A DNA stretch of 64,000 nucleotides from Thermanaerovibrio acidaminovorans DSM 6589. GTDB taxonomy: Bacteria; Synergistota; Synergistia; Synergistales; Synergistaceae. Below are positions 44,323-49,834 of this stretch, in pieces. The notes beneath the pieces are model-generated. The model did no database searches and was not told the origin of the DNA. It worked only from the letters and a program-made list of their open reading frames with translations. Every line of letters begins with the position of its first letter. Positions within the stretch are counted from its first letter, which is position 1. The DNA is taken from NCBI RefSeq assembly GCF_000024905.1, contig NC_013522.1, positions 1,302,001 to 1,366,000 of the forward strand. The letters are read 5' to 3'. The position numbers and the translations under genes were made by a program.

Positions 44323-45159
44323 CTATCCTTCATTATCCGATACAAGGCCCCCAAGGGCCCTCAAGACCGCCACCGCCCGATGGTGGATCCCGTGCCCGGT
44401 CCGGATGGACACGAAGGCCCCCCGGACCGGACGGCCCACCAACGCCAGGTCCCCCAAAAGGTCAAGCACCTTGTGCCCCAGACACTCCTCCCTGAAGGGC
44501 AGATGGGACCGGTTCATGGGCCCCTCCCGGTCTATCACCAGCGCGTTGTCCAACCCCCCGCCCCTTATGAGCCCCCGGGAGAGCAGGGCCTCCACCTCCT
44601 CCCGAAATCCGAAGGTCCTGCAGGGGGCTATCCTGCCAACGAAGGTCCCCGCATCCACCGGGAACTCCCCGTACACGGTGCCTAGCGGGGTCCCCGGGTA
44701 GTCCAGGAGGCACGACACCTTGAGACCATCGAACGGGTAGGCGCACAGTATCCTGCCCCCCGCGGGATCCTCGAAGGCCAGGGGGGACGTGACACCCACG
44801 GGCTCCACATCCCCCGCCTCCACCCTAGCGTCCACCAGGGCCCGGACGAAGGGCATGGCGCTGCCATCCAGGATAGGCACCTCCGGCCCCTCCACCTCTA
44901 TGAGGACCTGCCAGATGTCCAGCCCCGCCAGGGCCCCCAAGAGGTGCTCCAAGGTCTCCACCGACCGGCACCCCACCTCCACGTGGGTCCTCCGGTCACC
45001 GCTGCAGGGGCGCCACCGGTGGGCCGGCACCGGCCCATCGCCGGAGGAGAACCATATCCCCGGGAGATGGAAGGGGCGGACCGTGACGCCGCAGGTCCGG
45101 CCGGAGTGCAACCCCACCCCCTCAAAGGACACCTCCCCACGGAGGCCGAAGCACCTCAC
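44323..45159 (-). CDS. lpxC: UDP-3-O-acyl-GlcNAc deacetylase LpxC
   Basis: Zinc deacetylase and committed step of lipid A. 278 residues: EGVGLHSGR near the N-terminus, zinc His in SVETLEHLLGAL (about His72), catalytic IEVEGPEVPILDGSA, and HKVLDLLGDLAL with the second His and Asp. The GTG at 45159 overlaps the lpxD stop (GTGA). Not fused with FabZ, unlike some Bacteroidota. Confidence 0.95.
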   Translation of the reverse strand: MRCFGLRGEVSFEGVGLHSGRTCGVTVRPFHLPGIWFSSGDGPVPAHRWRPCSGDRRTHVEVGCRSVETLEHLLGALAGLDIWQVLIEVEGPEVPILDGSAMPFVRALVDARVEAGDVEPVGVTSPLAFEDPAGGRILCAYPFDGLKVSCLLDYPGTPLGTVYGEFPVDAGTFVGRIAPCRTFGFREEVEALLSRGLIRGGGLDNALVIDREGPMNRSHLPFREECLGHKVLDLLGDLALVGRPVRGAFVSIRTGHGIHHRAVAVLRALGGLVSDNEG

Positions 45160-46181
45160 GCCCCATCCCCCCGGCGGGACTCCAGGTCCCTCACCCGGGC
45201 CTCCAGGGCCTTCAAGCGCTCCAACAGGTCCGGCAGGCGCCGGACCAGCCCCTGAAGCCTCAGCTCCTCCCGGTGGTCCCGGGCGGGGAAGCCGGAGACG
45301 AAGGAGCCCGCCGGCAGGTCCTTCACCACCCCTCCCCGGGCGGCGATGACGCACCGGTCACCCACCGTGACGTGATCCCTCACCCCCGACTGGGCGGCCA
45401 TCACCACCGACCGGCCCAGCCGGGCGCTGCCCGCCACCCCCGAGTAGGCCACCAGCACCGAGTTAGGGCCGATCTCGCAGTTGTGGGCCACGTGAACGTG
45501 GTCGTCCATCTTGACCCCCTCCATAACCCGGGTGGCCCCCACGGTGGCCCTGTCCACGGTGGAGCAGGATCCCATCTCCACCCGATCCCCCAGGACAGCT
45601 ATCCCTATCTGGGGAACCTTGATCCGCTCACCATCCGCCCCCTCCACGAAGCCGAACCCGTCGCAGCCCACCACCGCACAGCTGTGGATCCGGCAGTGGG
45701 CTCCCACCTCACAGCGGTCCTGAACCACCGAGAAGGCCTGGAGCACCGACCCGGCTCCGATCCTGGCCATCCTCCCCACGTAGACGAAGGCCTGCAGCCA
45801 CGCCCCGTCCTCCACCACCGCACCCTGCTCCACCACGCAGTAGGGACCCACGTGAACCCCCATGCCTATGGAGGCCTCCGGATGGATCACCGCGGTGGGA
45901 TGCAACCCCTGGAACTCCAGGGGGGGATCGAAGCACTCCAGGGCCCGGACCCAGGCCCCGTCCAGGTCCTCCACCTCCACCCCCCACAGGGGGGGCCTCA
46001 CCAACCCCTTGAGGGCCACCAGCCCCGCGGGACCCACCGAAACGCCCAGGGGCCCCCGGCTCCTCCAGAAGATCACGTGCCCCTCCGCTGGCTCATGGGG
46101 GGGACACACCCCAACAACCTCAATGGACCCATCCCCCACAGGACGGCCCCCTATGATTGAAGCGAACTCATCCAAGCGCAA
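45156..46181 (-). CDS. lpxD: UDP-3-O-acylglucosamine N-acyltransferase LpxD
   Basis: 341 residues: an N-terminal uridine-binding domain (about 1-95), a long left-handed beta-helix, and a C-terminal coiled helix (VRRLPDLLERLKALEARVRD). The active-site His is in VHVAHNCEIG. The TTG at 46181 was chosen because GGAGGTG lies 8 nt upstream; a longer in-frame start at 46196 would place the ribosome site inside the gene. It lies next to the unknown envelope gene, where skp is found in Proteobacteria. Confidence 0.94.
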   Translation of the reverse strand: MRLDEFASIIGGRPVGDGSIEVVGVCPPHEPAEGHVIFWRSRGPLGVSVGPAGLVALKGLVRPPLWGVEVEDLDGAWVRALECFDPPLEFQGLHPTAVIHPEASIGMGVHVGPYCVVEQGAVVEDGAWLQAFVYVGRMARIGAGSVLQAFSVVQDRCEVGAHCRIHSCAVVGCDGFGFVEGADGERIKVPQIGIAVLGDRVEMGSCSTVDRATVGATRVMEGVKMDDHVHVAHNCEIGPNSVLVAYSGVAGSARLGRSVVMAAQSGVRDHVTVGDRCVIAARGGVVKDLPAGSFVSGFPARDHREELRLQGLVRRLPDLLERLKALEARVRDLESRRGDGA

Positions 46182-46204
46182 GGCCAACACCTCCAACGGG
46201 GGAA

Positions 46205-47479
46205 CTAAAGGTTGCTCAGGAACATGAGGCTCACCGGGTCATCGTATCGGGAGTCGTAACGGATCTCCACCGAGAAGTGATCCGAGAGCCGGCGTCCTAA
46301 CCCAATCCGTTTGCCACCCCTATCACCGATGGCCATGTGCAGATAGAAGTCATCGGGCAATACATCGGTATTTACCCGAAGGAACCACTCTCCACCGGGA
46401 TAGGTCCGCTCTACACCCGCCCACAGATACTGGAGGATCCGCCACTTGAGCCCCCAACGGCTCTCCACCGACAGGTCGACGCCATCCACCACCCACTCAC
46501 CGTAGGCCTCCATCCACCAGGAGGGTAAGAGCTGCACCTTCCGGCCCAGGTGAACTCCCCCTTCGCTGGACCGGCCATCCGAAAGGGCGTGGGCCGCCAC
46601 CCAACCCCAGATCACGTAACGGCGGCTGTCCAGCTCCATCAAGAGCTCCCCAATGGGGGCGGGCCTAACCTCCGCCCGGGCCTCCACCTCCAGCCTGCCC
46701 GCCAGGGAGCCGGATTCAGCCGAACGGCACAGGTGGCTGGCCGCCTGGGAGGACCTGCCCCTCAGGTACTCCACCGGAAGCCCCAGGAAGGCGGAGGCCC
46801 CGGTGAGGGCCTCATCCCTCATCTCACCCAGGACCAGGGCGGGCAGCGTGGAGGACCTGACCCGAGGGTTCAAGGCAAGCACCAGGGGCTCCCCGGGAGT
46901 GAGGGACACGTTCAAGACCCCCTCTGCGGGGGTGACCACCGCCCGGAAGCCCCGCATTCGCCTGGAGCAGACCTCCTGCACCAGCTCCTCCAGGGCCCGC
47001 CTGCCCCAGGTGAAAGCCTCGTTGGGAAGACCCTGAAGCTGGGGCTCCAACTCGGACGACAGATCCCCCAAGTCCTTCTCGATCCAGCTCGAAACAGGTT
47101 CCCTCCAACTCCCCGCTGCGGCGGTAACCCTCCATGAGCGGCCGTTCAAGGGAGTCAGACGAACCTTGAGCAGGTCCCCGTCGGCGGAGGCCTCCACCCG
47201 ATAGCCCTCGAAGAGCCGGCCGCAGACCATCTCCAGTATCCTCAGCCGCTCCCCCTGAGGACGGGAGGTGCCCATCTCCCGGTAGACCGCCAGCACGGTC
47301 CTCTCCACCGAGGGGACAAGCCACCGGGGCACCCCCTCCACCAAGGCCTTCGGGGCACCCAGGGCCAGGCCACACCAGGCCAAAACGAGGGCCGCGGCAA
47401 AAGCCGCAGCCCTCGCCGAAGTCCTAAGATCAGCTCCCCTAGAACATGTCGCCGAATCCGAAGTGGGTCCTGGTCTCAT
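46205..47479 (-). CDS. Uncharacterised envelope protein between bamA and lpxD
   Basis: Up to 424 residues. A hydrophobic Ala/Leu signal segment (about 22-40, ending GLALGA) is followed by an alpha/beta N-terminal region (about 45-200, with helices and repeating strands). The remainder looks like amphipathic beta strands with many Trp, Tyr and Gly (WWMEAYGEWVVDGVDLSVES), ending in FLSNL. It may be an outer-membrane barrel or a BamA-associated protein. The only in-frame ATG (47479) overlaps bamA by 41 nt. No good start lies between the bamA stop and the signal, so initiation is uncertain. No family recognised. Confidence 0.65.
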   Translation of the reverse strand: MRPGPTSDSATCSRGADLRTSARAAAFAAALVLAWCGLALGAPKALVEGVPRWLVPSVERTVLAVYREMGTSRPQGERLRILEMVCGRLFEGYRVEASADGDLLKVRLTPLNGRSWRVTAAAGSWREPVSSWIEKDLGDLSSELEPQLQGLPNEAFTWGRRALEELVQEVCSRRMRGFRAVVTPAEGVLNVSLTPGEPLVLALNPRVRSSTLPALVLGEMRDEALTGASAFLGLPVEYLRGRSSQAASHLCRSAESGSLAGRLEVEARAEVRPAPIGELLMELDSRRYVIWGWVAAHALSDGRSSEGGVHLGRKVQLLPSWWMEAYGEWVVDGVDLSVESRWGLKWRILQYLWAGVERTYPGGEWFLRVNTDVLPDDFYLHMAIGDRGGKRIGLGRRLSDHFSVEIRYDSRYDDPVSLMFLSNL

Positions 47480-49184
47480 CGTCCCCCTGGGCGTAGTCCA
47501 GCCGAAGGTTCCCCAGCGGGGTCTTGACCCTTATGCCTATGCCCTTCGACTGGGCCAGGTCCGAAAGGTCCATCCCCTCGCCATCGGACTTCTTCCACGC
47601 CTTCCCCGCATCGTAGAAGAACACCAGCGAGAAGTTGTCCTCCACCGGCAGCCGCAGCTCCGCGTTGAAGAGCAGCATCTCCTCACCCCGGAACCGGTTG
47701 TCCTTGTACCCCCTCAGCGTGGAGGTACCCCCCACCAGGTACATCTCACCCCAGGGTATGTCACCGCTCCCCCAGCCCGCCCGGGCCCTCAAGGCCAGAA
47801 GCACCGGGTTGTCCTCGCTCTTGGAGCCGAAGTCCAGGTAATCCATCAGCTTCTTGAGTGGCGTGTAGAAACGGGCCTCCAGCCAGTACTTGGTGTAGTC
47901 CCAGTCGCCCCCCAGGGACGAGAACCCCTTCTCGAAGTTCACCGTCTCCACGTCACCCTTGGGATAAGACAAGTAAGGATCCATGGTGTTCCTCGTAAGG
48001 CTAGCGGTTACGGAGAAGTTTTTGCCGTCCTCCATCTCCCGCCTCTCCTCCGGGGTCCTGTTGGAATCACCGGAGGTGACAGTGTTCTCCACCTTATGCC
48101 AGTCAAGGGTCACGAACCAGCTCAGCTGGTCGTTACCACGGAACTTCCGGCCCGCCCCCACGTAGGCGCCGATCTTCTCCTGATCGTAGGTGAAGCGCCA
48201 GTTGTTGTTCTCGTCGTAGTAGTCGTAGTCGGTCCACTTGCGCTTGTAGACCCCAGCGTTCCAGGAGTAGGTGTCCTGATCCATGTAGGGCTGGCTGTAA
48301 TAGACCCAATACTGCTCGTTGTCTCCCAACTCAAACCCGGCGGAAAGGTTCGTTCCGAGACCCTGCCAGTTGCTGTCGCTGTAGCTCAATCCGCCGCTCC
48401 AGCCGCTCTGGCTGCCGTGACCTACCGAAAGACCCAACTTGCCCGTCTTGGCCTCCTCCACCGTGAGGATAAGATCCATAACCACCGGATCCTCGGTGGG
48501 CTCGAAACCCACGCTTATGTCCTCAAAGTAGCCCTTGGCCTGGAGGCGGTTCAGGGAGTGACGAAGCACCGTGGCGTTGAACAGGTCACCCTTCTTGAGC
48601 TTCAGCTCCCGGCGGATCACGTAATCCTTGGTCTTCTTGTTCCCCTGGATCACCACCTCCCCGACCCGGGGCTCCAGGATGGTGACCTCCACCACCCCGT
48701 CCTTCACCTCCACATCCTGGACCCGCATCATAACGTACCCATCCTTGCGGTACTTGTCGGTGATCCGCTGAAGGTCGTTCCTGAAGAAGGTCCGGTTGAA
48801 GATGTTGCCCGGGGAGGTGAAGCAGAGGGCCTTCAGCTCCTCCTCCCGGTAGGCCACGTTGCCCTTGAAGCGGAGTGCCTGGACCACCGGGTTCTCCTTC
48901 ACGGTGAACACCACCCGAACCCCCTCGGGCACCTCCTCAACCCGGTAGTCCACCGTCTCGTAGAACCCCAGGTCGTAGATGGCATCCCGGTCCCTGTCAA
49001 GCTTCTCGTAGCTAAGGGGCTGACCCACCTTGGTGGACAGGGCCCCCGTGACGTAGGACGCCACGGTCCTCTCGAGCCCCTCCACCTCCACCGCCGCCAC
49101 GTTGGCCCCCTCCTCCGCCAACGAGGGAACCGCCAAGACTGCAACCAGCAGCGAAACCAAGCACAAAACGCGCCACACCCTCAC
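47439..49184 (-). CDS. bamA: Outer-membrane assembly factor BamA (Omp85)
   Basis: Inserts beta-barrel proteins into the outer membrane. 581 residues from the GTG at 49184. Signal peptide about 1-23; three POTRA domains (about 29-98, 99-173, 174-255) with GNVAYREEELKA and GNKKTKDYVIRRELKLKKGDLFN; and a 16-strand-type barrel with VGGTSTLRGY, the conserved lid-loop motif, and the terminal FGFGDMF. Proteobacterial BamA usually has five POTRAs, so this is a short form. A TATAAT box lies 43 nt upstream. First gene of the LPS supercluster. Confidence 0.95.
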   Translation of the reverse strand: MRVWRVLCLVSLLVAVLAVPSLAEEGANVAAVEVEGLERTVASYVTGALSTKVGQPLSYEKLDRDRDAIYDLGFYETVDYRVEEVPEGVRVVFTVKENPVVQALRFKGNVAYREEELKALCFTSPGNIFNRTFFRNDLQRITDKYRKDGYVMMRVQDVEVKDGVVEVTILEPRVGEVVIQGNKKTKDYVIRRELKLKKGDLFNATVLRHSLNRLQAKGYFEDISVGFEPTEDPVVMDLILTVEEAKTGKLGLSVGHGSQSGWSGGLSYSDSNWQGLGTNLSAGFELGDNEQYWVYYSQPYMDQDTYSWNAGVYKRKWTDYDYYDENNNWRFTYDQEKIGAYVGAGRKFRGNDQLSWFVTLDWHKVENTVTSGDSNRTPEERREMEDGKNFSVTASLTRNTMDPYLSYPKGDVETVNFEKGFSSLGGDWDYTKYWLEARFYTPLKKLMDYLDFGSKSEDNPVLLALRARAGWGSGDIPWGEMYLVGGTSTLRGYKDNRFRGEEMLLFNAELRLPVEDNFSLVFFYDAGKAWKKSDGEGMDLSDLAQSKGIGIRVKTPLGNLRLDYAQGDDETRTHFGFGDMF

Positions 49185-49226
49185 GGGACCACCCACCCTC
49201 TGCTCTCGTTCTGTTGCGGTCTAAAC

Positions 49227-49258: not shown

Positions 49259-49834
49259 TCACTGCCCCTCCAGGGCCCTCTGACCCGCCCTAAGCAGGAT
49301 CAGGGCCTCGTCCAGCCCCAGCGAGGGCCGGGACTCCCCGGGACGCTCCGCCGGGGGCACTGCATGGGACCCCTTGGGGGACACACCGGACTCCGCAACC
49401 CTAGGTTGCCTGGACCTGGCGACCCCCTCCGCCGCCCTGGCGGGGGCCACCGAAACCACCCTCACCGGCGGAGACGCAGGATCCAACCGCTGGGGCGGCA
49501 CCGCATCCACCAGCTTGACGTCCGGGACGGGCCTCTCCTCCCGGGGAACCGATGCGGACGGGACGGGGACCCCATCCCCCACCGCTAAGGGCTCCACCGA
49601 GGCCAGGAGGGCCAGCAACGCCATGGCGGCCCCCACCAGGGCGGGACTCCACCGGGCACCGGCCTTCGCGGGGGCACCCGCCACCAGATGGGACACGTGA
49701 TCCCTCAATGACCGGGCCTCCGCCTCCAGGCACTGGCTCTCCGCCAGGGCGCTGTCCCACATGGAGGCCTCCACCGCCCGGGTGAGCCTCTCCAGCCAGC
49801 GCCTCACCCGCTTGAGCCTCAACTCCACATCCAA
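49259..49834 (-). CDS. Single-pass membrane protein downstream of sigma factor
   Basis: 191 residues. A basic, helical N-terminal part (about 1-62) precedes one transmembrane helix (about 66-82, VGAAMALLALLASVEPL), then a Pro/Val/Ala-rich exported stretch and a short helix at the end. The layout (cytoplasmic helix, one membrane pass, exported tail) next to a sigma gene resembles an anti-sigma factor. There is no HxxxCxxC zinc anti-sigma motif. Function unproven; 68 nt after the sigma stop. Confidence 0.55.
   Translation of the reverse strand: MDVELRLKRVRRWLERLTRAVEASMWDSALAESQCLEAEARSLRDHVSHLVAGAPAKAGARWSPALVGAAMALLALLASVEPLAVGDGVPVPSASVPREERPVPDVKLVDAVPPQRLDPASPPVRVVSVAPARAAEGVARSRQPRVAESGVSPKGSHAVPPAERPGESRPSLGLDEALILLRAGQRALEGQ

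Follow-up and report, generated by a model that had tools for sequence, protein, structure and literature searches.

The Omp85 superfamily is defined by a 16-stranded barrel (PMC13067283). Its Omp85/TpsB proteins, including BamA, TamA and FhaC, carry N-terminal POTRA-type domains directly before the C-terminal outer membrane (OM) barrel, and in bacteria with a Lol pathway the lipoproteins BamB-E of the BAM complex have their periplasmic domains fixed to the OM beside BamA. How diderm Terrabacteria assemble OM proteins (OMPs) with BamA alone is a question of recent reviews; these bacteria lack OM lipoproteins and run BamA without the known accessory lipoprotein subunits, perhaps with unknown factors (PMC13067283, PMC11784454), and barrels might in principle hold accessory domains in place instead (PMC11784454). 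BamG of Bacteroidota is a precedent for a BAM subunit that is itself an integral OMP (PMC12611786, PMC12578637). Here we describe X, an exported protein of 424 residues encoded between bamA and lpxD in Thermanaerovibrio acidaminovorans (Synergistota), which is predicted to be a shrunken BamA look-alike with three POTRA domains on a tiny 10-stranded barrel.

Locus, distribution and gene order

Gene X lies in the stretch of 64,000 nucleotides analysed in this work (the window; Table 1). An exported protein in the gap between bamA and lpxD had been proposed in the initial annotation, and the ORF, its homologues and a predicted N-terminal export signal confirm it. Both neighbours were verified by their domains, an Omp85 barrel with POTRAs for BamA and a hexapeptide acyltransferase for LpxD. 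The ATG of X is preceded by AGGGGG and falls inside the 3' end of bamA, and the start of lpxD is at most a few tens of bases past the X stop codon. The start region (47440-47479 and the homologous loci) is thus within bamA. An ATG is missing there in several homologues, and the true start codon may lie further in than the ATG at 47479. On the other side of bamA, between it and a WhiG-like sigma factor, a 191-aa protein without family (49259-49834, minus strand) has a relative at the same place in another genome (G098, L071:3872-4417, E 2e-8).

Table 1. Features of the bamA-X-lpxD region, with positions in the window.
Feature	Position	Strand	Basis
bamA, three POTRAs and Omp85 barrel, 41-nt overlap with X	47439..49196	-	ORF and domain matches
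Gene X, 424 codons, three predicted POTRA-like domains and 10-stranded barrel	46205..47479	-	ORF, homologues, AF2 model
Predicted signal peptide region of X; counting from the ATG at 47479, about 41 residues	47357..47479	-	sequence
Predicted POTRA-like domain 1, mature residues 3-69, beta-alpha-alpha-beta-beta	47150..47350	-	DSSP on AF2 model
Predicted POTRA-like domain 2, mature residues 76-154	46895..47131	-	AF2 model; in-register profile match to domain 1
Predicted POTRA-like domain 3, mature residues 161-244	46625..46876	-	AF2 model
Predicted 10-stranded beta-barrel, mature residues 247-383; C-terminal Leu and ionisable residues of the inner face invariant	46208..46618	-	AF2 model, alignment
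lpxD, directly downstream of X	45156..46196	-	ORF and domain matches
lpxC, fabZ, lpxA, kdsC, lptG (after lpxD in the window)			

X has no match in Pfam or NCBIfam, searches of PHROGs and of PDB sequences gave nothing significant, and 30 relatives of X have no consistent Pfam match. That X is a real gene is clear from its homologues, found by sequence in 53 of 61 relatives, from its detection by profile in 157 of 188 Synergistota genomes, nearly always as a single copy, and from the 29 checkable loci: in all 29 loci of the order that hold the three genes, bamA, X and lpxD follow one another on one strand (the contig of a thirtieth locus, outside this count, ends before lpxD). When only good Synergistota genomes are considered, X is present in 103 of 116, and it comes after bamA in every locus inspected. 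The deepest families (G062-G065) have the order bamA-X-skp-lpxD-lpxC-fabZ-lpxA, followed by kdsC-lptG where the contig extends that far. A scan of contigs with a four-sequence profile returned one relative only, from Synergistales, and lacks the sensitivity to rule out other phyla. Two candidate relatives were set aside: mt-EngA, whose PDB match (E 0.59) spans only about 50 residues, and an 807-aa frame of two genomes (G049 and G057), which matches X residues 26-95 weakly and whose visible ends are unlike X.

The initial annotation had X occupying the position of skp, the gene of Skp (OmpH), which adjoins bamA and lpxD in many Proteobacteria. A replacement of Skp by X is rejected, because skp is kept elsewhere in the T. 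acidaminovorans genome (G000:C1:719510), away from the cluster, and stands beside X in the bamA-X-skp-lpxD order of the deep branches. Skp is likewise encoded elsewhere in Synergistales genomes; OmpH genes were found separately from X, which lacks a match to the OmpH domain (PF03938), and the folds of Skp and X are unrelated. The "skp slot" is therefore a positional description only, skp having moved out of the cluster in Synergistales.

Predicted fold and relation to the Omp85 superfamily

A barrel and a POTRA-like N-terminus had been anticipated, and AlphaFold2 (AF2) models agree. The model of mature X (mean pLDDT 91, pTM 0.79) is assigned by DSSP three successive beta-alpha-alpha-beta-beta units, the order of a POTRA domain, and then ten antiparallel strands; the strands at 224-231 and 235-244 were counted with POTRA-like domain 3, which leaves ten for the barrel and puts both of its ends on the periplasmic side. 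Three such units and ten strands were again obtained, at lower confidence (pLDDT 77), for a member of another family, f12, that shares about 25% identity with the other homologues. Foldseek searches against the PDB returned only Omp85-family chains (BamA, TamA, Toc75 and CdiB/FhaC) among the top 48 matches of the X model (best E 1.7e-9) and the top 50 of the f12 model (best E 4e-7), the first match of X outside Omp85 being TMB10_163, a designed transmembrane barrel (target TM 0.53). The full-length TM-scores of X against Omp85 proteins are low, about 0.2, so the similarity is domain by domain and not global. A viral fold search brought up generic small barrels only. Domains 1 and 2 are alike by profile (E 1e-4) and domains 2 and 3 weakly so; POTRA HMMs do not match X. 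The architecture of three periplasmic POTRA-like domains followed by a small closed 10-stranded barrel is well supported by the models, and neither a confident match to an unrelated enzyme nor a soluble non-barrel fold was encountered.

The ten barrel strands of the model (247-257, 264-277, 280-291, 297-308, 311-319, 323-333, 337-344, 349-356, 361-368 and 375-382) make up the C-terminal third of X, where the aromatic, amphipathic strands pointed out in the initial annotation are indeed present. Their hydrophobic/polar alternation is 1.57, versus 0.75 for shuffled strands (0/20,000), and the conserved face is the polar one (1/20,000 shuffles), with E265, H269, E283, E287, E316, E364 and D368 invariant and R272, R300, R304 and R342 near-invariant. 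A charged interior with a hydrophobic exterior is the pattern of a membrane barrel and speaks against a soluble barrel for X; together with the signal sequence, this predicted inside-out amphipathic barrel would suit an OM location. Loops between strands have 2-6 residues and the five outer ones 3-6, so that little of X would protrude at the surface. The barrel, its core salt-bridged, probably anchors X in the membrane and is not a pore, a receptor or an omptin-type enzyme. Ten strands and conserved ionisable barrel residues would suit an OM enzyme of the 10-stranded omptin type or one that modifies lipid A, but the conserved charges point into the barrel interior within the membrane, the outer loops are short, and omptin, PagL, PagP and LpxR were found neither by sequence nor among the best folds, which makes an enzymatic role very improbable. 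A closed, loop-poor barrel with a periplasmic arm could also be a structural OM component, such as a peptidoglycan or S-layer anchor with the POTRA-like domains as spacers, and OM tethers do differ in Terrabacteria (PMC13067283); however, SLH, OmpA-like and other wall-binding domains were not found in X, and X is fixed to bamA and not to tether genes, so we regard this role as improbable.

X is built like a miniature Omp85, yet it is not an Omp85 protein by definition, because both AF2 models have 10 strands instead of 16, the HMMs remain unmatched and the loop-6 motif is absent. The Omp85/ShlB barrel HMMs have no Pfam match in X of the window or in deep homologues, and no Omp85 match was found among 30 members; the loop-6 motif (V/I/L)RG(F/Y) occurs in none of 34 X sequences, compared with 27 of 28 BamAs. 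The C-terminal residue of X is Leu in all 34, whereas Omp85/TpsB proteins end in Phe. The one to seven POTRAs N-terminal of an Omp85 barrel do have a counterpart in X, by predicted fold only. Comparison of X with BamA by hhalign yielded nothing, in a test that is weak for short POTRAs since POTRAs 1 and 2 of BamA fail it too, and the POTRA similarity of X to Omp85 could reflect common descent or convergence. The same features bear on whether X is a self-standing TamA-like factor that inserts or exports its own class of substrates parallel to BamA. The order of POTRAs and barrel is shared with TamA, FhaC and BamA, the leading Foldseek matches are Omp85 proteins, and detection of TamB in the relatives is weak, which could leave a Tam-like task vacant. 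The ten strands with their packed charged core and lack of any sign of a lateral gate, and the missing loop-6 motif, argue against such a factor, which we consider unlikely.

Loss of X and evolution of BamA

In the seven X-less loci inspected, lpxD comes after bamA with nothing X-sized between them, and lpxC is kept. The BamA tree requires six independent changes between presence and absence of X; X has been lost at least six times independently while BamA stayed, and is therefore dispensable over evolution. The initial annotation had suggested checking for co-occurrence of X with a short, three-POTRA BamA, an idea that is rejected: BamA has three POTRAs with or without X, and N-terminal and loop extensions account for the greater length of the BamA frames in G003 and G007. 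X-less genomes sit on longer branches of the BamA tree; a faster evolution of BamA after loss of X was likewise rejected, as control genes lengthen too on a fixed tree and the excess of BamA falls short of significance (p 0.06). Some further observations concern these genomes and their relatives. No fabZ frame was found in the cluster of G003 and G007 (L133, L134), both X-less, and G003 has three Omp85 matches. Extra divergent Omp85-type frames occur in some relatives (L083:1519-3687, L085:1040-3367, L086 and L087), and one extra frame of this type begins like a patatin-like Omp85 (GGGTKGFAH).

X could alternatively place lipid A/LPS or phospholipid as an OM-anchored periplasmic adaptor, since it stands in one gene run with lpxD-lpxC-fabZ-lpxA and lptG in the lineages seen. 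This role is weakened by the independence of the LpxC, LpxD and LptD-type genes from X: lpxD and lpxC are kept in all seven X-less loci, and the genome of T. acidaminovorans encodes elsewhere an LptD_N protein of LptD size, for which reason X as a stand-in for LptD was also rejected. The lpx clusters house skp and bamA as well, neither of which has an LPS role, and we rate the adaptor as rather improbable. The protein in question (L090:166-1887, at about 1296022 of G000:C1) has 573 residues, an LptD_N domain and a strand-rich C-terminus. Among the 61 genomes of the order, Pfam LptD and LptD_2 have no match, though LPS genes are present.

Proposed role in OM protein assembly

We propose, with a probability of roughly one in two, that X, anchored by its barrel, is an accessory subunit of the BAM complex, or modulates it, in Synergistota, a lineage without recognisable BamB-E; a TamA-like factor, a role in LPS or lipid placement and a structural tether are ranked behind it, in that order. 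Several considerations favour the BAM accessory role. The BamD model scored above its cut-off in none of 61 genomes, with the positive controls detected; the reviews of Terrabacteria leave room for additional factors, and X, with POTRA-like domains on a minimal barrel and co-encoded with BamA, fits the description of a barrel-attached accessory (PMC11784454); and BamG sets the precedent for an integral subunit. The overlap with bamA and the fixed linkage to it, through the order and in the deep-branching families, also speak for this role. Against it are the at least six losses of X with BamA kept, which indicate that X is not indispensable, and the evolution of BamA, which is not detectably faster than that of other genes after the loss; gene order alone fits an LPS role equally, as the lpx genes come next.

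According to this proposal, X would be an integral OM protein whose 10-stranded barrel, inserted by BamA itself, serves only as an anchor, and whose arm of three periplasmic POTRA-like domains would lie alongside BamA's own POTRAs and bind nascent OMPs, Skp or the BamA POTRAs. X would thus do the job of BamB-E, which also hold periplasmic domains at the OM; unlike these lipid-anchored proteins, with their unrelated folds, X would be anchored by a barrel that needs BamA for its insertion. BamG resembles X as a lineage-specific integral OMP and is a shown BAM subunit, but it is an essential 14-stranded FadL-family barrel without POTRAs, whereas X has POTRA-like domains and has repeatedly been lost. 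The signal, the POTRA-like fold, the 10-stranded inside-out barrel, the linkage to bamA and the phylum-wide presence of X are predicted with good support; the contact with BamA, the binding of substrates and the role in assembly are inferred. A wider and more tentative suggestion is that X founds a separate class of 10-stranded, POTRA-bearing OM barrels and, in a diderm phylum that lacks OM lipoproteins, is the functional equivalent of BamB-E anchored by a barrel.

The predicted ten-stranded POTRA-barrel would break the sixteen-strand rule for POTRA-bearing OM barrels of the Omp85 type. X provides a specific, testable and phylum-wide candidate for an OMP-assembly factor of the kind sought in diderm Terrabacteria, and this previously unnamed protein may be the missing BAM helper where the usual helper lipoproteins are absent.
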